NCBI RefSeq assembly: GCF_000968055.1
Contig: NC_022538.1
Location: 1,151,499 to 1,215,498, forward strand
DNA from: Alteracholeplasma palmae J233
GTDB taxonomy: Bacteria > Bacillota_I > Bacilli_A > Acholeplasmatales > Acholeplasmataceae
Direction: 5' to 3'
Length of the DNA: 64,000 bases
This document shows, piece by piece, positions 31,774-45,853 of this stretch. Under the pieces are notes generated by a model, which did not search any database, was not told the DNA's origin, and worked only from the letters and a program-made list of their open reading frames with translations. How positions within the stretch are numbered: position 1 is the first letter of the stretch; each line of letters opens with the position of its first letter. Position numbers and translations under genes: made by a program.

Positions 31774-32157
31774 CTACTTTATTGATTGATAAATTTGATC
31801 TAATACTTTATTCGTAAAACGATGTTGTTTAGCATCATCTAAGTTTGAAAATTCTTTTGTCAGTTCAATTGCTTCATTGATTACAATTGTATGAGCTAAT
31901 TCTTTTTTCAATAGTTCATAAGTTGCTAATCTAATGATTGCTTTGTCTACTTTGTTTAATCTATTTAAACTATAATCAAAAAGGTTCTTTTCAATAAGTA
32001 AGTCAACTTGTTCTAATTCTTTTATTACTTGGTTGAATAAATCTATACTTTCAGGTGAAAATAATTCATTTTTAAGTTCAAATTTACTTTCATAAAAATC
32101 ATATTGATATAATAATTCCATTACTTCTTCTCGAAGTTTTCTTCTAGCATCGTTCAT
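31774..32157 (-). CDS. nusB: Transcription antitermination factor NusB
   Basis: About 127 residues, all-helical, works with NusE/S10 on rRNA antitermination. Typical segments: RRKLREEVMELLYQYDF at the start, LDYSLNRLNKVDKAIIRLATYEL-like core, INEAIELTKEFSN, FTNKVLDQI at the end. I take the ATG at 32157 because GAGGTG is spaced correctly; the longer frame to 32226 adds 23 residues not seen in the family. First gene of the repair operon; an extended -10 is just upstream. Confidence 0.92.
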   Translation of the reverse strand: MNDARRKLREEVMELLYQYDFYESKFELKNELFSPESIDLFNQVIKELEQVDLLIEKNLFDYSLNRLNKVDKAIIRLATYELLKKELAHTIVINEAIELTKEFSNLDDAKQHRFTNKVLDQIYQSIK

Positions 32158-32174
32158 AAATAACACCTCATCTA

Positions 32175-32183
32175 ATTTTACCA
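32175..32183 (-). promoter_or_regulatory. nusB operon extended -10 promoter
   Basis: Minus strand TGGTAAAAT, about 18 bases before the nusB start. It lies inside the longer reading frame, which further supports the shorter NusB. Confidence 0.5.
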
Positions 32184-32230
32184 CATTTGTTTGTTTAACA
32201 AAAGAATCTTTTGTTTTATTTTTCATATTA

Positions 32231-32518: not shown

Positions 32519-33601
32519 CTATTTAGCTTTCACTTGGTTCCATGCTTCGTCAATTAATTTTTTAGCAGTTTCATTGTGGCGGTATATTTCATCATTTTCA
32601 TGGAATACAATTTGGTATGCATCTTTAAAGTCTGCGAATTCTCCGCCTTCTTCAGTTAATTCTGCAATAATATTAGTAAATGGTGATGTATATCCAATAA
32701 ATTCTGCATTTGCTTTAGCATTTTCATGTCTTGAAATAAAATTAATAAATTTATATGCAAATTCTTGATTAGCATTTTTAGGTATAACCATACCATCTAC
32801 CCAAATGTTAGTTCCTGTTGTTGGTACGTAATATCCTAATTGATCATTTTCTGACATTAAGTATACAGAATCTCCTGAATAAGCTACTGATATATCATAT
32901 GCCATTTGTTTAGGGTTAATCATTTGATCTAAGATTTGATCTGTTACAAATGATACATTATTACCATGATCATTTTTTAAATCAATTAACCAATTTTTAG
33001 CAGCATTGATTTCATCCGTTTGTTCACTATTCATAGATTTACCTGCATTTTTCAAAGCAACTAATAAACCTTCTCTTGAAGTATCATATAAAGATACTTT
33101 ATATTTAGTGTCTTTTAATATTTCCCAGTTTCTAGTTTCAAGTTCAGATTTTTCTACTTTATTTTTATTATATAACAATCCAACATTACCCCAGAAGTAA
33201 GGTACTGAGTATTCTAAGAAATCATAACCATTTGTTTCGTTTTTTAATCTTTCTAATAATGAGTTTAATCCACTAGCAAACTCAGTATCTTTATTAAATG
33301 CATCAATCTTAGTCCAGTCAATCTTAGCTAATAAATCCAATTGAATTAAATGTTCTGTTCCATATTCACTAGGAATAATCACATCATATTTATCTCCACC
33401 TTGAATTTTTGTAATTGCTAATTCATTTGAAGTGAACATAACTTGGTTTACTCTGATTCCTTCTTCTTTTTCAAAAGCTTTAACTAATTCTGGGTCAATA
33501 TATTCTCCCCAGTTGTAAAGAACCATTGTAGGTCTACTATCACAAGCAGCAAGCACTAATGAAGCTACTGCAGTTAATATAACTAATAATGTTTTTTTCA
33601 T
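32519..33601 (-). CDS. potD: Spermidine/putrescine-binding lipoprotein PotD
   Basis: 360 residues. A lipoprotein signal ends in LAAC with C20 as lipid site; the mature part begins with the family hallmark LYNWGEYIDP. It binds polyamine outside the membrane and delivers it to PotBC. The ATG overlaps the potC stop as ATGA, and AGGAG lies 12 bases upstream. The PotD-like half of the fusion at 39287 is its paralogue. Confidence 0.93.
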   Translation of the reverse strand: MKKTLLVILTAVASLVLAACDSRPTMVLYNWGEYIDPELVKAFEKEEGIRVNQVMFTSNELAITKIQGGDKYDVIIPSEYGTEHLIQLDLLAKIDWTKIDAFNKDTEFASGLNSLLERLKNETNGYDFLEYSVPYFWGNVGLLYNKNKVEKSELETRNWEILKDTKYKVSLYDTSREGLLVALKNAGKSMNSEQTDEINAAKNWLIDLKNDHGNNVSFVTDQILDQMINPKQMAYDISVAYSGDSVYLMSENDQLGYYVPTTGTNIWVDGMVIPKNANQEFAYKFINFISRHENAKANAEFIGYTSPFTNIIAELTEEGGEFADFKDAYQIVFHENDEIYRHNETAKKLIDEAWNQVKAK

Positions 33602-34392
33602 TCTTTTTCTATTCTCCTTTTGGATCTAATATAATCTATTGTTACTTTTATACCAATAACAAATATAATAATGGTTGAAAGAGCATTAACCGAAGGGTTA
33701 ATTGTTCCTCTTAAACTGTAAATATAAGCTGAGATGTTTTGGTAAGATTCCCCACCAACAAAGTATGAAATAATAAAATCATCAAATGACATTGCAAAGG
33801 CAATTGCTGCTCCTGCAATCATTGATCCTTTAAGTTGTGGTAAAACTACTTTAAACATTGTTTTTATTGGGGTTGCTCCTAAGTCATAGGCAGCATCTAT
33901 TAAATTATCATCTAAACTTCTTACTTTAGGATATACCGTGATTAAAACATATGGTACACTAAATGAGATGTGAGCTAAAAGCATTTTCCAGAAACCTGAT
34001 GTAATACCAATTGATCCAAATAAGACAAATAAGGATAATGCGGTAATAATTTCAGGGTTCACAATTGGAATATTATTAGCACTTAATGTGACATTTCTAA
34101 ATACTTTTTTACTCTTTGAAAGAGAGATTGCGGCCATTGTGCCAATAATGGTTGATATAAGTGTTGATAAAAATGCAATCTCTAAGGTTACCCATACAGC
34201 TGATTTAATGGTTGGGTCAGTAAATAGTTTTTCATACCACTGAAAACTGAAAAAATTCCAGTGTACTAAGGAAGCCGTTCTTCCTGTGCTACCATTAAAT
34301 GAAAATATGACTAATGAAATAATGGGAATATAAATCAATAATAAAATGATTGTAATATATATTTTAGGAAGTGTTTTTCTATTTCTAAGCAT
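33598..34392 (-). CDS. potC: Polyamine ABC transporter permease PotC
   Basis: About 264 residues with six helices. The EAA loop reads DAAYDLGATPIKTMFKVVLPQLKGS; SFDDFIISYFVGG follows, as in PotC. Start at ATG 34392 with AAGGAAGTG upstream, overlapping potB by 8 bases; the TTG at 34419 is much less likely. Ends in TGA inside ATGA with potD. Confidence 0.93.
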   Translation of the reverse strand: MLRNRKTLPKIYITIILLLIYIPIISLVIFSFNGSTGRTASLVHWNFFSFQWYEKLFTDPTIKSAVWVTLEIAFLSTLISTIIGTMAAISLSKSKKVFRNVTLSANNIPIVNPEIITALSLFVLFGSIGITSGFWKMLLAHISFSVPYVLITVYPKVRSLDDNLIDAAYDLGATPIKTMFKVVLPQLKGSMIAGAAIAFAMSFDDFIISYFVGGESYQNISAYIYSLRGTINPSVNALSTIIIFVIGIKVTIDYIRSKRRIEKE

Positions 34393-35236
34393 TTTTTTCA
34401 CTTCCTTTATATCGATCAATCTTCTTTAATCCTATCAACATCAAAATCATAATAACTGATAGTAAGATTGCTATTGCTGAAGCACTGTTAATTTTTCCAC
34501 TTAATAAGGCCTCATTTTCAATTAACTCACCTATCATAAGTTTGGTAGTAGGTCCTAAATATCTTGGGATAGCAATCGTTGTTGCTGCTGGTAATAAAAC
34601 CATTGTAAGTCCTGATGTAACCCCTGGTAGTGATAAAGGAATGACCACTTGTTTTAAAACCTGATATTTGTTTGCTCCTAAGTCTTCTGCTGCTTCAATT
34701 AAACTATGATCAATTTTAGATAAAACCGTATATATTGGTAAAAACATATATGGTAGGAAGATATAAACCATTCCTATGACACTTGCTAGATTTGTTTCAA
34801 GCAGTCTCACTCCAGTAAATGCATGAATCATGCTAAATATTTGCACTAATGCGTTTGTTCTTAAAATCATATTAATCCACATTGTCCCAGTAATTAATAA
34901 AACTAATAAGCCTTGACTGACTAGTTTAAATTTAGTTACAGCAAGTGCTAAAGGATAGGCAATCAAGAGTGTGATAATAGTCGCTAAAACCGCCAACCAT
35001 ATAGAGTTTATCATGACATTGATAAAATCTACTTTAGATAAAAATGATGCATAGTGGCTCAGTGTAAATCTACTGCTAAAAAGTCCTGATGCACTTTCTT
35101 GAACTGAGTAAAATACCATGACAATAACCGGTATTAATACTAATCCTATTAAGATAATGTAGTATGGTAGTCCAATTGCTTTTTCAAGGGTTAGTTTATC
35201 TTTTCTGTTAATTTTTATAATGCCTTGATTTGTCAT
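34385..35236 (-). CDS. potB: Polyamine ABC transporter permease PotB
   Basis: 283 residues, six membrane helices, EAA loop EAAEDLGANKYQVLKQVVIPLSLPG. Partner of PotC in the membrane channel. The ribosome site GGAGG lies inside the last codons of potA, with the ATG just after the potA stop, so the two are probably translationally coupled. Confidence 0.93.
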   Translation of the reverse strand: MTNQGIIKINRKDKLTLEKAIGLPYYIILIGLVLIPVIVMVFYSVQESASGLFSSRFTLSHYASFLSKVDFINVMINSIWLAVLATIITLLIAYPLALAVTKFKLVSQGLLVLLITGTMWINMILRTNALVQIFSMIHAFTGVRLLETNLASVIGMVYIFLPYMFLPIYTVLSKIDHSLIEAAEDLGANKYQVLKQVVIPLSLPGVTSGLTMVLLPAATTIAIPRYLGPTTKLMIGELIENEALLSGKINSASAIAILLSVIMILMLIGLKKIDRYKGSEKNA

Positions 35237-35237
35237 T

Positions 35238-36515
35238 TTACCATACCTCCATCACATGTATATCTTCAGGGTTAAAGTCTAAATCTACTTTGGTCCCCAG
35301 TTCTACATGATCCGTGGTATGTATTGTATAAATACGATTTTCAGTTTTTACATCTATTTCCCAATGAACACCTTTGAAGACAATAGAATCTACGATTCCA
35401 TTAATTTTACCTTGTCCAAATGTGACAATATCAATATCTTCTGGTCTAATAACAACATCAACTTCTTCATTTCTAGCAAAGCCTTTGTCTACACATACAT
35501 AGTCTTTGTTATCAAAATTGACTAAGTAGTCATCTTTCATAATTCCAGAGATAATATTTGATTCTCCTATAAATGAAGCAACAAATTTATTAGCAGGTTC
35601 ATTGTAAATATCTTCTGGAGTTCCAATTTGTTGAATTTCTCCATGGTTCATTACAACTACTTTATCACTCATAGTTAGAGCTTCTTCTTGGTCGTGTGTC
35701 ACAAATATAAAAGTAATTCCTGCGTTTCTTTGGATTTCTTTTAATTCATATTGCATTTCTTGTCTTAATTTTAAGTCAAGGGCTGCTAAAGGTTCATCAA
35801 GTAATAAAACTTTAGGTTCATTAATTAAAGCTCTTGCTATGGCAACACGTTGTTGTTGTCCACCAGATAATTTATGAATAAGTCTATTTTCATATCCTTC
35901 TAGACCTACCATTTTTAAGTACTTGTTCACTTTATTTTGAATTAATTGTTCAAAATCTTTTTTTGTTAGAAAAGTCTTTTTAAGATGTTCAATCTTTTGA
36001 GTTTTAGTTTGATTTAAAACTTCTATTTTTTTATTTAATTCATTCTTAAGTTCTAATTCCTTAGTATTTAAATTTGCTTTTTCTAAACCTAAAGATTTAA
36101 GTTCTAATTTTGCTTTACTAAAGTTATTTTTTAAAGTTTTCACTTCTTGTTGATATTCTTTTTGTAGTTGGGCAATCTCTATTTTTTGTTCATTATTTCT
36201 TTCTTTCACTCTAAGACCAAATGCTACATTTTCATAAACATCTAAATGAGGAAAAAGGGCATACCTTTGAAAGACTGTATTAGTAGGTCTTTTATGTGCT
36301 GGAAGATCTACAATGTCTTTCCCATCAAATAAAACACTCCCATTACTTGGGGACTCAAAACCACCAATAATTCTTAATGTTGTTGTTTTTCCACAACCAG
36401 ATGGTCCTAGAAAAGTTACAAACTCATTTTGCTCAATTTCTAAATCAATACCTCTTAATACGACCTGTCCGTTAAATTCTTTTGTTACATCTTTTAATTC
36501 AATTAGGGTAGCCAT
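35238..36515 (-). CDS. potA: Polyamine ABC transporter ATPase PotA with coiled-coil insertion
   Basis: 425 residues. Walker A GPSGCGKT (37-44), Q loop [10 protein letters not shown], signature LSGGQ (216-220), Walker B LLLDEP, then a TOBE-like C-terminal domain. Between the Q loop and the signature, residues about 105-192 are a Lys/Glu-rich heptad-like insertion absent from most PotA proteins. Powers uptake by PotBCD. First gene of the operon, behind a consensus promoter and three palindromes. Confidence 0.94.
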
Positions 36516-36534
36516 TTATTGTCTCCTTTCAGGT

Positions 36535-36613
36535 GTTTACTTTATATAAACAAAAAGTTTTTTTAATGTTCTTAGTTTAGTATAGTTAAACATTTTGTTA
36601 ATCTATTTTAAAC
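36535..36613. promoter_or_regulatory. Three repeated palindromes in the leader of pot operon 1
   Basis: Sites GTTTA-N7-TAAAC at 36535-36551 and 36575-36591, and GTTAA-N7-TAAAC at 36597-36613. All are 17 bp. Starts are 40 and 22 bp apart, between the predicted transcription start (about 36617) and the potA ATG. They could bind a dimeric repressor or fold as RNA hairpins. Confidence 0.6.
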
Positions 36614-36623
36614 TACACGATAT

Positions 36624-36651
36624 ATTATATAATAAAAAGTTTCTATGTCAA
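36624..36651 (-). promoter_or_regulatory. Consensus promoter of pot operon 1
   Basis: Minus strand TTGACA (36646-36651), 16-base spacer, TATAAT (36624-36629). Both hexamers are perfect. IS copy 2 begins 67 bases upstream and leaves it intact. Confidence 0.85.
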
Positions 36652-36718: not shown

Positions 36719-38461
36719 GGGACTGTAACGAAATAAAAGTAACAGTCTATAAAACAAAAAAGCCGCTCTAGAATCCTAGGGCGGTTTTTTGGTATAATTA
36801 TAGTATGCAAACACAACAAAATATACAACATAATTTTAACCCAAAACAGTTAAAATTACCACTACAATTAGACATAAAAATTCCTTTTGATAGTGAAGTT
36901 CGTACATTTGATGAAGTATTTAGAAAATTGGAGATAAAAAAATACTTAAATAGCTCAAAAGACCCAAGAGGTCGTATGGGTTATAATCCGGTTCAAATGT
37001 TAAAACTGATCATGTTTTGTCAAATGGAAAAGATTCAATCTTTAAGAGATATGGCAAAAGCTGCTAGAAATGATATTAGAATCATGTGGCTTACAGATGA
37101 ATTAATGCCAAGTCATCAAACAATAAAAACCTTTATGGATAAATACTTAGTTAAAGGAATAGATGAAATCTTTTATGAACTAAGTAAGTACTTAATAAAA
37201 AAAGAATCTATTGATACAGATAAATTATATATAGATGGTACTAAAATAGAATCGGTGGCTAATAAATATAGTTTTACATGGCGTGGTTCTATTGAAAAGT
37301 TTAGAGATAAGTTATATAAAAAAATAACCAAACAGATAGAATCCTTAAATAAAAGATATGAAGACTCAGATATCTTCTTTCCAATACATGAAACATATAA
37401 CACTGATAATTTAAATAGCATCAAAGACTTTCTACTTAATGAGATAGATAGGGAATTAATAGAGTTTAAATATGGTAAAGGTCAAAGAAAAACTACTTTA
37501 CAAAGAGATTATGAACATATCTTAGAATATTTAGCTAAACTTGTAGAGTATGAAAGACATTTAAAGATTATGGGTAATGATAGAAACTCATATGCTAAAA
37601 CAGATATAGACGCGACTTTTATGCATATGAAAGAAGATCATATGCGTAATAGTCAATTAAAACCAGGGTATAATATACAAATTGGTGTATCAAATGAATA
37701 TATCCTACATCTAGATATCTATAAAGAACGTAGTGATTATAAAACTTTGATTCCTTTTTTAGAAGGATTTAAGAAAAGTTATGACTTCTATCCAAAATAT
37801 CCAGTAGCGGATGCTGGATATGGTGGATTAACGAATTATCGTTATTTAAAACTAAACGATATGGAGCTTTATCAAAAATATGCAATGTATGCTAAAGATA
37901 CGCATGACAAAAAAAGAATGAAAGATCCATATTTTCCATTTAACCTTACTAAATCAGGTAATGATTATTTAACACCTAATGGAGATACTTTAAAGTATCT
38001 GTATAGAAATAATCGAGGTAATGATGTATATGAATTACCAAATGGTAAGCGTAAAGAGATTAATGATGAAAATCTTACATACCAAAAAGAGGTTATTAAA
38101 AATCTTACATCACCATTAGGAATTGAATTAAGAGTTCAAAGGTCAATTCAAGTTGAGGGTGCCTTTGGAGTGATTAAAGAAGCATTTAAAGTAAGAAGAT
38201 TTAGACGAAGATTAACTCATAATGTTAAAATGGAGTTTTATTTAACAGCGATTGGGTATAATTTGAGAAAATATCATAATAAAAAGTATAGAATAACAGA
38301 ATAGATATCTACAATAAACTTAAGATTTTAATAGAATCTTCTTTTTTGACGCCTAAAAGTAGATGTTTTTTGATTTTATCCACATAGTTCACGGTAGATA
38401 TAAGAAAAAAAGAACTGTTAAGTTCTTGAAGTAGTGAATTACTTCATTTCTTTACAGCTCC
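36719..38461 (+). mobile_element. IS1182-like insertion sequence, copy 2 (complete)
   Basis: 1743 bp, same ends and internal sites as copy 1. It sits between the pot operon 1 promoter and the 3' end of the FNT-family gene, whose stop it faces at 27 bp. Flanks are A-rich on the left and T-rich on the right (AAAA / TTTC), without a clear duplication. Internal sites: terminator 36756-36790, -10 36793-36798, transposase terminator 38322-38347, inward-facing terminator near 38405-38426. Confidence 0.95.
36805..38304 (+). CDS. IS1182-family-like transposase, copy 2
   Basis: 499 residues, intact, with the same D144, D336, E451 triad as copy 1. The protein is identical to copy 3. It differs from copy 1 in the cluster at residues 178-220 and at the AARND position. 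Leaderless start as in copy 1. Confidence 0.95.
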   Translation: MQTQQNIQHNFNPKQLKLPLQLDIKIPFDSEVRTFDEVFRKLEIKKYLNSSKDPRGRMGYNPVQMLKLIMFCQMEKIQSLRDMAKAARNDIRIMWLTDELMPSHQTIKTFMDKYLVKGIDEIFYELSKYLIKKESIDTDKLYIDGTKIESVANKYSFTWRGSIEKFRDKLYKKITKQIESLNKRYEDSDIFFPIHETYNTDNLNSIKDFLLNEIDRELIEFKYGKGQRKTTLQRDYEHILEYLAKLVEYERHLKIMGNDRNSYAKTDIDATFMHMKEDHMRNSQLKPGYNIQIGVSNEYILHLDIYKERSDYKTLIPFLEGFKKSYDFYPKYPVADAGYGGLTNYRYLKLNDMELYQKYAMYAKDTHDKKRMKDPYFPFNLTKSGNDYLTPNGDTLKYLYRNNRGNDVYELPNGKRKEINDENLTYQKEVIKNLTSPLGIELRVQRSIQVEGAFGVIKEAFKVRRFRRRLTHNVKMEFYLTAIGYNLRKYHNKKYRITE

Positions 38462-39257: not shown

Positions 39258-39288
39258 AAAAAAAATAACCAGGTTTACCCTAGTTATT
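39258..39288 (-). terminator. Terminator of pot operon 2
   Basis: Ten-bp stem AATAACTAGG / CCTGGTTATT with one wobble pair, 5-base loop and a T-run on the minus strand; it overlaps the stop of the fused gene. Confidence 0.8.
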
Positions 39289-41281
39289 AAGAAATTTTAA
39301 CTTTATTTACCATATTATTAATTTTATCCAGTTCTTCTTGCTTTAAATTTTTAAGTGGTGTCCCCTTAAATCTTACTGGACTATCACTTCCAAGAATTGG
39401 ATAATAAGTCTTATTAGCATATGCCCAATCAGTCAGCCATTCATCTTCTCCAACATAATTAGTAATCATTTCATATGATTTTAATAGCGGTGTTGCATAA
39501 CCTACAACAGAGGCATTTTCATATGCGTTTTCTGGATCTAAAAAGAAATTAATAAACTTATGTGCTAAATCAACATGTTTAGCTTTTTTAGGAATAACAA
39601 AAGCATCCATAAAAGCGATTGTTTGTTCTGGTATATGAATGTCGAAAGTTATTTCATCTAATTTACTACCATCATCTAATTTTAAGTATAGCATATCTAG
39701 AAAATCTCCAGTATAGACGAAAGCTAAATCTAAATTATTTGAAGCAATTCCTTTTTTAAGTGTATCTGTTCCCCACTCATTAATATTAGCTTTAATAAGT
39801 GTATTTTCAGCTTGTTTCAGTAATTCTTCTGAATATACATTAGGGTCTAAGTTTTGTGAGTACATCGCAGCTGCATATGCATTTCTAGAAACATTATACA
39901 TACCTAATCTGGTATTAGAAGGTCTCTTTGTTGGATCCATATATGCTTGCCAACCATACTCTTTTACTGCTTGTTCTAACCCTTCTTTTTTCTTATTATA
40001 CATAAGACCGAAAGTACCCCAAAAATAAGGAACATTATATCTTTCATTACCTTGAGTCATCTTAGATTGTATGCCTAAGACTCCTTCCATATAAGGGTTA
40101 TTGTCTTGATTGTAATTAGATAATTTGCTGTAGTCTATTTCTTGCAATAAATCTTTTTCCATCATCTTTTCAATCATATAATCAGATGGGACTACTAAAT
40201 CATATGCGGTAGTGCCACTTTTTATTTTTGAATAAAATAATTCATTTGAATCGGCAATACTAATTGAAACTTCTACACCAAATTCTTCTTCAAATTTAGC
40301 AACTAAATCATCATTAATATACTCACCCCAGTTTAATAACAATAACTTATTACTTTGACCACATGAAGCAAGTAAAATTGAACTTATTATAATCGTAAGT
40401 AAGAGATATATTTTTTTAGTGTTTAGCATTTTTCTTACCTCTTTTTTTAACATAAGTTGGTATCCTAGAACAAAGGCTAAAGTAACAAGTGTTAATAATG
40501 TTGAAAAGGCATAAACAGATGGTGTTAGACTCTTTCTTCCAATAGAACCATAAATCCAAATAGAAAGATTATCAAAACCATTTCCTGTAGTATAATAACT
40601 AATTACAAAATCATCAATACTCATTGTAAATGCAAGCAATGTTCCAGAAAATACCCCTGAAATAATAGCTGGTAAAACTACCTTGATTAAAGCTTTGTAA
40701 GGTTTTACCCCTAAATCTAATGCAGCATCCATTAAGTTAGGATCTGTTTCTTTTAATTTTGGTAAGACACTTAATATAACATATGGCAATGTAAAGAATA
40801 AATGAGCCATAATTAAAGTAACTGGACCAAAGATATAAGGAAAGATTGGTAAAAGTAAAGAAAAGATAATCATTAAAGAAATACCTGTAACAATATCAGC
40901 ATTTAAAACTGGAATATTATTAAATAACATAACTCTTTGACGTTTCTTTTTAGCAAGCGAATAGATACCAACTGCAATAAAGGTTCCTAGTATAGCCGCG
41001 AGAGCTGTTGAAACAAGACTCACAATTAAAGTATTTGTAATAGCGTTTCTTAAAGAACGATTACTAAACATTTCTAAATACCATTTAAATGTAAGTGATT
41101 TAAACGAATTCACATCACTACTTGAATTAAGTGATTGTAAGGCAATTAATAAAATAGATAAATACATAACAAATATGATTAATCCTAATAATATTTTACT
41201 AATAATTTTGTAAACCTTTTTAAGTTTTGAATAATCTTTATAACCATAGTCTGATAAAGCTGCTTTTGGGTACTTATTCAT
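39287..41281 (-). CDS. Fused polyamine permease and substrate-binding protein (PotC-PotD)
   Basis: 664 residues. Residues 1 to about 280 are a PotC permease: six helices, EAA loop DAALDLGVKPYKALIKVVLP, SIDDFVISYY. From M285 the chain is a full PotD lipoprotein: basic start, hydrophobic core, LASC lipobox (C307), then LLNWGEYIND. The internal ATG at 40429 has GAGGT 7 bases upstream, so a separate 380-residue lipoprotein could also be made. The start overlaps potB2 as ATGA. The lack of a stop between the two halves is what the sequence shows directly; which products exist is unknown. Confidence 0.93.
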   Translation of the reverse strand: MNKYPKAALSDYGYKDYSKLKKVYKIISKILLGLIIFVMYLSILLIALQSLNSSSDVNSFKSLTFKWYLEMFSNRSLRNAITNTLIVSLVSTALAAILGTFIAVGIYSLAKKKRQRVMLFNNIPVLNADIVTGISLMIIFSLLLPIFPYIFGPVTLIMAHLFFTLPYVILSVLPKLKETDPNLMDAALDLGVKPYKALIKVVLPAIISGVFSGTLLAFTMSIDDFVISYYTTGNGFDNLSIWIYGSIGRKSLTPSVYAFSTLLTLVTLAFVLGYQLMLKKEVRKMLNTKKIYLLLTIIISSILLASCGQSNKLLLLNWGEYINDDLVAKFEEEFGVEVSISIADSNELFYSKIKSGTTAYDLVVPSDYMIEKMMEKDLLQEIDYSKLSNYNQDNNPYMEGVLGIQSKMTQGNERYNVPYFWGTFGLMYNKKKEGLEQAVKEYGWQAYMDPTKRPSNTRLGMYNVSRNAYAAAMYSQNLDPNVYSEELLKQAENTLIKANINEWGTDTLKKGIASNNLDLAFVYTGDFLDMLYLKLDDGSKLDEITFDIHIPEQTIAFMDAFVIPKKAKHVDLAHKFINFFLDPENAYENASVVGYATPLLKSYEMITNYVGEDEWLTDWAYANKTYYPILGSDSPVRFKGTPLKNLKQEELDKINNMVNKVKIS
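40427..40443 (-). promoter_or_regulatory. Internal ribosome site and ATG for the PotD half
   Basis: Minus strand AGAGGTAAGAAAAATG, in frame within the fusion (translated there as KEVRKM). Spacing of 7 bases is ideal, and a complete lipoprotein signal follows. Confidence 0.6.
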
Positions 41282-42111: not shown

Positions 42112-43213
42112 ATTCATTAACCTTCATAATATGAATTTCATATGGATCCACTTTTAATCCAATATCTTCTCCAACAACATAGTTTTCATAAGTATTAACT
42201 TTTAAACTTGTTCCTTTTATATCGACTAACAATTCATTATGAACACCTTTAAATAAACTGCTTGTTACTTTTCCTATTAATTTTGCTTTATCTAAATCTA
42301 CTACATCAAAATCTTCAGGTCTAATCACAACATCTACTTTTTCATTTTTCTTAAAAGTATATCCCATACATTCAAAATCAACGCCCATAAATGACACTAA
42401 ATCCTTTTTTAAGTATACAGCTGGAATAATATTGGATTCCCCAATAAAAGTTGCTACATATCTATTTACTGGCTCATTATAGATTGCTTTAGGAGTTCCT
42501 AATTGAACAATGATTCCTTTATCCATAACGGCAATTCTATCACTCATTGTCATTGCTTCTTCTTGATCATGTGTAACAAAGATAAAAGTAATACCTAATT
42601 GTCTTTGCATTTCCTTTAATTCATATTGCATCTTTTGTCTTAACTTTAAGTCAAGTGCTGCTAAAGGTTCATCTAATAATAGAATTTTAGGTTTATTAAC
42701 AATAGCACGGGCCAACGCAACTCTTTGTTGTTGCCCTCCACTCATTTGAGTAATTCTTCTATTTTCGTATCCTTTTAAGTTAACTAAAGATAATGCTTCT
42801 AATGCAGATGCTTTAATAAGTTCATTGATTTTCTTTTTTACTTCTTTTTTATTTTCATTTTCTAAATGATAAAAATTAATCAAATATTCCCAGCTACGGT
42901 TTTTAAGTCCAAAGGCTACATTATCAATTACATTCAAATGTGGGAATAATGCATATTTTTGAAATACTGTATTAATTGGTCTTGCATATGGAGGTAGATC
43001 ACTAAAATCTTTACCTTCAATAATAATCTCTCCCTGATTGGCTTTTTCAAATCCGCCTATCATTCTTAGTGTTGTTGTTTTACCGCACCCAGACGGTCCT
43101 AAAAGAGTTAAAAACTCGTTTTCAAATACTTGTAAGTTTAGACTGTTAACAATGACTTCATCGTCAAACTGTTTAGTTACATTCAAAAGTTCAATAATGA
43201 CTTTATCGCCCAC
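42104..43213 (-). CDS. potA: Polyamine ABC transporter ATPase PotA, operon 2
   Basis: About 369 residues if started at GTG 43213, where GGAGG lies 8 bases upstream. The predicted promoter (43250-43277) rules out the first ATG of the longer frame at 43291; ATG 43228 is an alternative. Walker [24 protein letters not shown] signature, LLLDEP, and a TOBE-like C-terminus. It has only a short insertion (WEYLINFYHLENENKKEV) where PotA of operon 1 has about 88 residues. Confidence 0.92.
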   Translation of the reverse strand: MGDKVIIELLNVTKQFDDEVIVNSLNLQVFENEFLTLLGPSGCGKTTTLRMIGGFEKANQGEIIIEGKDFSDLPPYARPINTVFQKYALFPHLNVIDNVAFGLKNRSWEYLINFYHLENENKKEVKKKINELIKASALEALSLVNLKGYENRRITQMSGGQQQRVALARAIVNKPKILLLDEPLAALDLKLRQKMQYELKEMQRQLGITFIFVTHDQEEAMTMSDRIAVMDKGIIVQLGTPKAIYNEPVNRYVATFIGESNIIPAVYLKKDLVSFMGVDFECMGYTFKKNEKVDVVIRPEDFDVVDLDKAKLIGKVTSSLFKGVHNELLVDIKGTSLKVNTYENYVVGEDIGLKVDPYEIHIMKVNEYE

Positions 43214-43249
43214 TAATGGATCCTCCATATTATTTATTTTCACGAGATA

Positions 43250-43277
43250 ATTATAAGGCATTTTAAAAATAATGCAA
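43250..43277 (-). promoter_or_regulatory. Promoter of pot operon 2
   Basis: Minus strand TTGCAT (43272-43277), 16-base spacer, TATAAT (43250-43255). None of the palindromes of pot operon 1 is found here. Confidence 0.65.
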
Positions 43278-43291
43278 TCCTTTTTTATCAC

Positions 43292-43318
43292 AAAAAAATA
43301 AAGAGCCTAACAAGGCTC
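43292..43318 (-). terminator. degV terminator
   Basis: GAGCCT - TGTT - AGGCTC followed by TTTATTTTTTT on the minus strand. Confidence 0.85.
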
Positions 43319-43324
43319 CCAATT

Positions 43325-44173
43325 TCATTTTTCTAGTATACTTATTGCTATTCCTAAAGCTTCTTTTCCTGTATGAATTGCTAATGCTGGGGTTACGTAT
43401 TGAACATCAATTTCAGTAGCATTTGGAAGTTCTTTTTTCATTACTTCTAAAATCTTAGAAATATCTTCATTTGTCTGACTATTGAGTAATGTTACTTCGT
43501 ATTTTTTGCATGTTCCAACAAAGTCTTTTGCAAGTCCAATCATACCAGTAATTGCGTGTTTATAACCACGTGTTTTTTTAACAGTGTAATAAACACCCTT
43601 ATCATTACAACTAATAACTGGTTTAATATTAAGCATAGAAGCGATCGTTGCTGAAACTAGTCCTATTCTTCCACCTTTTTTAAGGTTTTCAAGACTTCCA
43701 ACAGTGAAAAATACTTTTTGATTTTCTAAGTTATCATTAACAGTTTTGACAATCTCATCAAAACTCTTTCCTGCTTTGGCAAGTCTACCAGCTAAAATAG
43801 CGCTATAACCACTACCTAAACTAATATTTTTAGTATCTATGACTTCTATTTTTAAATCATCATATAGTGAAGTCATTTGTTGGATAATATTCATTGTACC
43901 ACTTAAACCTTTTGAAATAGGTATAGCAATTACATGGGTATATCCAAGTGCTTTTATTTCATCTAATTGATCAATAATATCATTAGGCGAAGGAAGTGAT
44001 GTTGTTACTTTAGTTTCTTCTAGTTTAACTAATACCTCATCTAAGGTAATATCTTTTTTATCAGTATATTCTTTTCCATCAATAATAATTCTAAGTGGTA
44101 AGACAAAAATAGGCAAATCTAATTTTTCTAAATTGATATCTGAACCTGAGTCAGATAAAATAGCAATTTTCAT
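43325..44173 (-). CDS. DegV-family fatty-acid-binding protein (FakB-like)
   Basis: 282 residues. N-terminal ILSDSGSDINLEKL, LPLRIIIDGKEYTD, TSLPSPNDI, IPISKGLSGTMNI, and C-terminal GKEALGIAISIL match DegV/FakB proteins, which bind one fatty acid and in several Firmicutes present it to the kinase FakA. No FakA gene is in the window. It overlaps the DUF1836 gene by 4 bases and shares its promoter. Confidence 0.88.
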   Translation of the reverse strand: MKIAILSDSGSDINLEKLDLPIFVLPLRIIIDGKEYTDKKDITLDEVLVKLEETKVTTSLPSPNDIIDQLDEIKALGYTHVIAIPISKGLSGTMNIIQQMTSLYDDLKIEVIDTKNISLGSGYSAILAGRLAKAGKSFDEIVKTVNDNLENQKVFFTVGSLENLKKGGRIGLVSATIASMLNIKPVISCNDKGVYYTVKKTRGYKHAITGMIGLAKDFVGTCKKYEVTLLNSQTNEDISKILEVMKKELPNATEIDVQYVTPALAIHTGKEALGIAISILEK

Positions 44174-44727
44174 TCTTTGTTCTCCTTTGTAATATTGTGT
44201 ATTTCTTTTAATAGGTATTCTGACATCATTTTTGAGGCAAAAGCTAAAGTAGCGGTTTTCATTGGGAGTAAGTTATAATCAATTGGTTGAATAAAATATG
44301 CTTCATCAGGTGTTTTTTCTAATTGTTCAGTCATAACTTTTAAAGCATTTTCTAAAAAATCAATGAATAAATTGTATGCTTTTATTTTACCAAATGTAAG
44401 TTTCATGTGTTGTATACCTCTACTTACAGAAGATAAAGTTGCTACTTGCTTTAGAATAGTAATTGTTATTATAAATGCTATGTGGTCTTTTTGGTATCTT
44501 TTTTTTACTGGTGCCGGCATAAGTTTATTTTTAACATAATTATTAATCATAGAATCAGTTAAGACTTGCTTAGAATTGCTTGATACCGGCTCTATAAACA
44601 CTGCACTAATATTATCATTTACGTATTCTAATACTTGATCAAGATATAAAGAGAGTTCTGGTAAATCTTCCCATCTAGGAAGTCTAATTTCTTTTACACT
44701 CATGGCCCAGTCTTTTATTTCAGTCAA
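44170..44727 (-). CDS. DUF1836-family protein (probable DNA-binding)
   Basis: About 185 residues. The motif LTDSMINNYVKNKLMPAPVKKRYQKDHIAF is characteristic of DUF1836 (shown here by its core only: MINNYVKN and PVKKRYQK) and looks like a MerR-type helix-turn-helix. I place the start at TTG 44727, with GAGGTG 6 bases upstream; the GTG at 44736 is inside that site and ATG 44703 has none. First gene of an operon with degV. A 7-7-7 palindrome overlaps its promoter, so autoregulation is possible. Confidence 0.72.
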   Translation of the reverse strand: MTEIKDWAMSVKEIRLPRWEDLPELSLYLDQVLEYVNDNISAVFIEPVSSNSKQVLTDSMINNYVKNKLMPAPVKKRYQKDHIAFIITITILKQVATLSSVSRGIQHMKLTFGKIKAYNLFIDFLENALKVMTEQLEKTPDEAYFIQPIDYNLLPMKTATLAFASKMMSEYLLKEIHNITKENKE

Positions 44728-44739
44728 TATAATCACCTC

Positions 44740-44760
44740 ATCTAGTTTTCAATACTAGAT
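44740..44760. promoter_or_regulatory. Palindromic operator candidate at the DUF1836-degV promoter
   Basis: ATCTAGT-N7-ACTAGAT, perfect arms, overlapping the -10 hexamer and the expected transcription start. Confidence 0.6.
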
Positions 44761-44784
44761 TATCACATTTTATAGATTTGTCAA
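44757..44784 (-). promoter_or_regulatory. DUF1836-degV promoter
   Basis: Minus strand TTGACA (44779-44784), 16-base spacer, TAATCT (44757-44762) with extended TG. Confidence 0.7.
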
Positions 44785-44833
44785 TTATTTTTATTTATTT
44801 TAGGCCTAAAAATAGCGATAATCTTCATTTTTA

Positions 44834-44880
44834 TAAAAAAAGACTATTTACTAAAATTGAGTAAATAATCTTTATTTTTT
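44834..44880 (-). terminator. Terminator of the YumC-type reductase gene
   Basis: Long stem AAGATTATTTACT / AGTAAATAGTCTT with one mismatch, T-run on both sides. Confidence 0.8.
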
Positions 44881-44881
44881 A

Positions 44882-45853
44882 TTATTCTGTAATAATTGAT
44901 GAAGAATGTTGTGTATTCGTTGTTCTTTCAGGATGTAGGTACTCACTGATAACCCCAATAGCGGTTGCTGCTTCACCCATACCAGTAACAATCATTTTAG
45001 CTTTTCCTTCATAAAAAACACCGTTACCAGCTGCATAAATTCCTTCAAGATTAGTTTCCATTTTACTATTAACATAAATTAAACCTTTTATACCTTCAAT
45101 GCCCCAATCTTCTAACTTAGATTTAGAGCCTAAAAGTCCGTAATTTACTAAAATAGTATGTGCCGGCATTATTAATAATTCTTTAGTCTTTACATCTTCT
45201 AATTCAATACCTGTAACTTTTTTATCACCTAATACTCTTTTAACTACATAAGGAGTATGTGTTTTTCCATTCAATTTAAGATATTGATCCAATGTATCTT
45301 GATGAGCTCTAAATGCATCTCTTCTATGTACTAAATGTACATTTTCAGTGATACTCTTTAATTCAAGTGCCCAATCCACTGCAGAATCTCCACCACCTAA
45401 AACAACTATTTCTTTATCCTTATGATCTTCTAAGTTATCAATATGGTAAATAACACCTTCTAAATGGCTGTTTTCTACATCTAGAGGCATTGGTGTAAAA
45501 CTACCACCGCCGTGAGCAATCAAAATAGTTTTTGTCTGAAATACTTGTTGATTAGTTGTTACTTCGTAATAATCATTTACTCGTTTAACTTCTAATGCTT
45601 CTTGATTTAAATATACAGGTACTTCTTTTTCAAATCTTTTATATTGTTTGATACATTCTTTAACATAATCTTCAGCTTTTATTTTATAAAAGCCAGGTGC
45701 ATCATATATTGGTTTATCTTTATATAAATTAATAGGTTGTCCACCCATATAAGGTAATGATTCAATAACAGCTGCATCTAACTTTCTTAGTCCTGCTAAA
45801 AAGGCAGCATATAATCCAGTTGGTCCAGCACCTATAATAAGTAATTCTAACAT
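44882..45853 (-). CDS. Ferredoxin/flavodoxin-NADP+ reductase, type 2 (YumC-like)
   Basis: About 323 residues. FAD site IIGAGPTGLYAAFLAGLR and NADP site VVLGGGDSAVDWALEL, the latter followed by VHRRDAFRAHQ. It has the thioredoxin-reductase fold but no CxxC between the two sites, which is typical of the YumC group that passes electrons between NADPH and ferredoxin or flavodoxin. Start at ATG 45853 with AGGAGACG upstream. Single gene. Confidence 0.88.
   Translation of the reverse strand: MLELLIIGAGPTGLYAAFLAGLRKLDAAVIESLPYMGGQPINLYKDKPIYDAPGFYKIKAEDYVKECIKQYKRFEKEVPVYLNQEALEVKRVNDYYEVTTNQQVFQTKTILIAHGGGSFTPMPLDVENSHLEGVIYHIDNLEDHKDKEIVVLGGGDSAVDWALELKSITENVHLVHRRDAFRAHQDTLDQYLKLNGKTHTPYVVKRVLGDKKVTGIELEDVKTKELLIMPAHTILVNYGLLGSKSKLEDWGIEGIKGLIYVNSKMETNLEGIYAAGNGVFYEGKAKMIVTGMGEAATAIGVISEYLHPERTTNTQHSSSIITE

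Follow-up and report, generated by a model that had tools for sequence, protein, structure and literature searches.

The first of two polyamine uptake (pot) operons in Alteracholeplasma palmae J233 carries three short palindromes in its leader, which raises the question of what these sequences are and which factor reads them. The window analyzed here is the 64,000-bp stretch at positions 1,151,499 to 1,215,498 of NC_022538.1, and positions are given in its numbering unless another label is used. The operon lies on the minus strand and begins with potA, encoding the ATPase (35238–36515, ATG at 36515), followed on the same strand by genes named from their sequence as a potB-like permease (34385–35236), a potC-like permease (33598–34419) and a potD-like polyamine-binding lipoprotein (32519–33601). 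The leader itself reads as a -35 hexamer TTGACA (36646–36651, minus strand), which is conserved in relatives, a 16-bp spacer, a -10 hexamer TATAAT (36624–36629, minus strand), which is invariant across 24 aligned leaders, and an AGGAG ribosome-binding site (36523–36527, minus strand). All three palindromes fall between the -10 box and the ribosome-binding site, and take the form of a 17-bp dyad, GTTTA-N7-TAAAC, on the minus strand. Box 1 (GTTTAAAATAGATTAAC; top strand GTTAATCTATTTTAAAC; 36597–36613), the first after the -10 box at a gap of 10 bp, departs from this form by a single change, and its imperfect half is likewise found in nearly all relatives. Box 2 (GTTTAACTATACTAAAC; top strand GTTTAGTATAGTTAAAC; 36575–36591) is perfect and lies one step of 22 bp away (gap 5 bp), and the equally perfect box 3 (GTTTATATAAAGTAAAC; top strand GTTTACTTTATATAAAC; 36535–36551), which adjoins the ribosome-binding site, follows after a further step of 40 bp (gap 23 bp). 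Since a 6-nt spacing is reported to be the commonest in Mollicutes promoters (PMC5138195), transcription is predicted to start at about 36617, and box 1 would then span about +5 to +21. The first-pass annotation, made from this DNA alone, had correctly described the three dyads, their number of changes and their steps, as well as the consensus promoter 5' of them. Its further remark that the second pot operon lacks them also stands, with zero sites at one mismatch or fewer in 43101–44900, so that these operator-like dyads are confined to the first operon and the two transporters differ in that respect.

PotA homologues were located in 87 of the 101 genomes searched. In the 24 leaders of family f1, which include that of this genome, the alignment runs from the -10 box through box 3 with few gaps, the outer pentamers being near-invariant and the 7-bp centers and 5-bp linker variable. 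Of 61 related genomes, 33 contain a strict composite of boxes 1 and 2 (GTTTA-N7-YDAAC-N5-GTNTA-N7-TAAAC) exactly once, at the pot locus, and the reversed control pattern occurs in none (0); two genomes missed by the strict pattern (G012 and G044) do have both boxes, departing from it at one further position, and wider sampling added five more families of the class, with a looser form of the composite. The step between boxes 1 and 2 is always 22 bp in relatives. The step between boxes 2 and 3, usually about 41 bp, amounts to 40–42 bp in f1, 51 bp in G069 and 61–63 bp in f24, in L144 and in some of the f5 leaders. Values of 48, 65 and 75 bp also occur, so that the near-whole-turn spacing noted at first largely holds but is not without departures. 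Among nine lineages, collapsed by hand, the helical phasing of boxes 2 and 3 gives a Rayleigh p of 0.06 at 10.5 bp, and of 0.033 after a search of periods from 10 to 11 (best fit 11.0). Shifts of roughly one turn between boxes 2 and 3 are thus suggestive and statistically modest.

The genes behind the composite are strikingly uniform in function. A blind scan of the genomes of 84,980 species (GTDB) with the 39-bp composite of boxes 1 and 2 returned 50 matches, 46 of which stand immediately before potA, before speDE, or before an XRE-cupin gene that has potA behind it wherever the stretch is long enough to show this. One of the 46 (L116) comes from a truncated stretch whose sequence is that of the potA leader of A. 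granularum (L030/L067). The remaining four (L117, L123, L133, and L154) are archaeal or from the Cytophagales, and the scan of species genomes yielded 0 matches in Staphylococcus. The composite precedes speD-speE in Clostridium paraputrificum, speD followed by speE or by an Orn/Lys/Arg decarboxylase-like gene in the f12 genomes, and potD in G124. The preponderance of pot, spe and regulator genes among the blind matches indicates that the composite marks a polyamine regulon, and its targets, genes of polyamine uptake or metabolism, are those of XRE-cupin polyamine regulators. Hence, what had been described as a feature of the first pot operon is real, but the element recurs from the Acholeplasmatales to the Clostridia and is tied to a regulator gene that can be located. 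A wider regulon in this genome was set aside, because a scan for the composite at up to three mismatches recovers well just the potA locus, the one other match (152710, three mismatches) being a poor one with broken half-sites; a single target is therefore likely.

In some relatives, the regulator gene lies beside its presumed target. In G075, the composite is followed by a gene for a 177-aa XRE-cupin protein and then by potA, and the same order is seen at ten other f2/f3 loci (L077–L086), several of them with degenerate boxes, as well as in f22 and many Clostridia. At the search threshold, the genome of A. palmae encodes one full-length homologue of this protein (51% identity; G000:C1:256180–256719, outside the window), with an architecture of N-terminal XRE helix-turn-helix and C-terminal cupin (HTH_3, 56.7 bits; Cupin_2, 66.3 bits; both above gathering). 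Its best NCBIfam match is PuuR (NF007408), aligned over the full length at 72.7 bits, and since this score is below the equivalog cut-off of 211 bits we call the protein PuuR-like rather than PuuR. The recognition-helix segment of the helix-turn-helix (EL.KG..SQ.E) is nearly invariant across orthologues linked to potA and those located elsewhere, as expected if both read the same operator.

In this genome, the regulator gene does not adjoin its target, as it does in f2, f3, f22 and the Clostridia. It lies instead within a pgk-XRE/cupin-HPr-tpiA operon (L106:1485–4261; G000:C1 about 254984–257760), and a position between pgk and tpiA is shared by all 20 sampled loci of f1, f5 and G069 (this genome and 19 others), an HPr-like gene following the regulator in every one of them except L088. 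Being unlinked to potA in the Acholeplasmataceae, the regulator must act in trans there, and autoregulation in A. palmae was discarded on finding zero boxes in the 6 kb around its gene. The 20 proteins encoded between pgk and tpiA form one group (support 99/97), which is consistent with one relocation event. It may tentatively be proposed, as a possibility that we hold with limited confidence, that the repressor gene moved once from the pot operon to the pgk-tpiA operon, beside the HPr-like protein, in an ancestor of the Acholeplasmataceae and near relatives, that the operators remained in front of potA and acquired a third, phased box, and that polyamine uptake would thereby have been tied to glycolytic or PTS status.

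Loss of the two partners also appears to coincide. Neither the XRE-cupin regulator nor, in the regions upstream of potA, the boxes were found in the phytoplasmas (g8) and genus g6, and the PotA of g6 is still 80–82% identical over the N-terminal region compared. The strict composite occurs in 32 of 53 genomes with the regulator versus 1 of 8 without it (Fisher p = 0.019, with kinship ignored). In the lone exception, G084, boxes are present and the regulator was not found in a draft that is 83% complete.

The three dyads are thus probably DNA operators through which a trans-encoded XRE-cupin regulator of the PuuR/PotR type represses potABCD, a prediction that we consider likely from sequence comparison. 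In the proposed mechanism, XRE-cupin dimers would occupy each of the three dyads. Boxes 1 and 2, about two helical turns apart, would form an invariant core over the initially transcribed region, where bound regulator would block initiation or promoter escape, leading to repression of potABCD; box 3, about four turns beyond box 2 and beside the ribosome-binding site, may add cooperativity or a roadblock. The presence of the same operator before pot uptake genes and before the synthesis genes speD and speE makes a homeostatic logic likely, with repression while polyamines are plentiful. Binding, the sign of regulation and a polyamine effector are what we infer from these patterns, and the pairing of regulator and boxes in this genome rests on orthology and co-occurrence, given that the regulator gene is unlinked to potA.

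Several other readings of the dyads have to be weighed against this one. Taken singly, they could be the chance palindromes of AT-rich DNA, since the dyad with one mismatch allowed occurs 11 times in the window versus 8.5 times in shuffles, with no clear excess, and the comparison with shuffled sequence that the first-pass annotation had put forward as its own refutation looks negative if confined to the lone dyad. The cluster, however, is far beyond chance: at least two perfect sites arise with a frequency of 5e-6 among 200,000 Markov-simulated 136-bp leaders, and at least two perfect sites with a third at one mismatch or fewer in 0 of the 200,000. Its absence from simulation and its retention at the same locus across genera and families and into the Clostridia lead us to reject a chance origin, the probability of which is negligible. 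The possibility that the dyads act as RNA, as hairpins of the potA 5' UTR that control translation or transcription in riboswitch-like or protein-bound fashion, draws on the location of every box 3' of the inferred start site, on box 3 abutting the ribosome-binding site, and on the potential of the left half of box 1 to pair with the right half of box 2 in this leader. Among 40 sequences, however, no compensatory changes were seen in ten possible pairs, a count that is weak by itself given that the pattern used to select the sequences already fixes most of these positions, and one pair of box 1 is unpaired in 27 of the 40, the invariant pairs being uninformative either way. Furthermore, folding of the leaders gives no clear advantage over shuffled sequence (z of -1.4, 0.04 and -1.0), no Rfam family matches the potA leader at gathering score, and at 16 loci of the Clostridia the asymmetric composite is inverted with respect to the direction of transcription. 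The hairpin alternative, which had initially been left open, is therefore disfavored and strikes us as very improbable; the lack of compensatory changes, the inverted composite in the Clostridia and the shifts of box 3, mostly by about whole turns, favor DNA operators, and a double-stranded operator read by a dimeric helix-turn-helix protein appears to fit best.

If the dyads are DNA operators, they could still be read by another helix-turn-helix protein common to these genomes. In A. palmae, a long distance separates the XRE-cupin gene from potA and no boxes surround that gene, and in the surroundings fetched for the f12 speD, f23, f24 and f7 composites no XRE-cupin gene was seen. Against this stand the linkage of composite, XRE-cupin gene and potA in several independent families and in the Clostridia, the joint absence of boxes and regulator in g6 and the phytoplasmas, and the match between the polyamine theme of the targets and proteins of the PuuR/PauR type, and we regard a different reader as unlikely. 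A more serious, if still doubtful, alternative keeps both operators and XRE-cupin regulator and changes the sign, the protein being an activator or a repressor relieved by polyamines in the manner of PuuR and PauR. PotR of S. aureus is called an activator in one paper (PMC9871828), PuuR leaves DNA upon sensing putrescine (PMC7901475), and potABCD of S. agalactiae is induced by polyamines (PMC8744998). Nonetheless, the boxes lie 3' of the -10 box, a position where binding normally represses, and the targets raise polyamine levels, so that induction by polyamines would amount to positive feedback.

Several known systems can be compared with the proposed repression of potABCD by an XRE-cupin protein. 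The XRE-cupin proteins of Pseudomonas (P. aeruginosa) are repressors that act on palindromes at core promoters (PMC7901475), and palindromic sites at the core promoter are what the potA leader presents. PauR, PsdR and the other Pseudomonas repressors bind such palindromes as dimers, as proposed here, most of them act on one or two targets, and PauR governs polyamine genes; they differ in that their target genes are others and that all bind beside their own gene, unlike the regulator of this genome (PMC7901475). Such adjacency is usual in Pseudomonas without being a hallmark by which this kind of regulator is defined. PuuR of E. coli (NF007408) shares the helix-turn-helix and cupin architecture and the polyamine theme, but governs putrescine catabolism (PMC7901475) rather than uptake and synthesis genes, and repression by PuuR and PauR is relieved by polyamines (PMC7901475). 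As cited in PMC8744998 and PMC9871828, PotR of S. aureus (potRABCD; Yao and Lu, 2014, PMID 24610336) is likewise an XRE-family regulator tied to a potABCD uptake operon, in the potR-potA order of the linked relatives; the likeness is one of description, and potR adjoins potA, whereas the regulator is unlinked in A. palmae. A conserved element in pot leaders is also known from the ABC-leader RNA of potABCD in Haemophilus somnus and Pasteurella multocida, but this is an attenuator with a terminator (PMC2965389), and the potA leader described here shows neither terminator hairpin nor covariation.

The dyads represent a new operator motif for an already known kind of regulator, the XRE-cupin polyamine regulators. 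In the open literature, we found neither a GTTTA-N7-TAAAC tandem operator or a PotR operator nor an account of the regulator in a pgk-tpiA operon, and a prior description of either is possible. Few regulators with known sites are available in wall-less bacteria, and the motif provides a testable operator, together with a specific candidate trans regulator, for polyamine homeostasis in them. From the Acholeplasmatales to the Clostridia, pot and spe genes seem to be united by this motif in one polyamine regulon, of which no account was found either. The loci compared here also show a regulator gene that has apparently settled for good among glycolytic genes.

Some further observations concern the surroundings of the leader. 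Perfect GTTTA-N7-TAAAC sites number six in the genome, and the four outside the potA leader, all inside or edging coding sequence, were set aside as operators on account of this position. A fourth perfect site in the window (31954–31970), inside a 150-aa nusB-like ORF (31774–32226), is probably due to chance. The PotA protein of the first operon carries at residues ~105–180 a charged, coiled-coil-like insertion within the ATPase domain, a region that is missing or much longer in relatives (open frames of ~360 to 577 aa), and the second pot operon contains a single 664-aa ORF (39287–41281) that looks like a fusion of a PotC-like permease with a PotD-like lipoprotein. Lastly, a 499-aa transposase-like ORF (36805–38304) lies upstream of the potA promoter, and an identical 17-mer, GTTTAAATATGGTAAAG, occurs inside it and at two other sites of the window (about 3243, 37464 and 63095), which suggests that the window may hold three copies of one insertion sequence.
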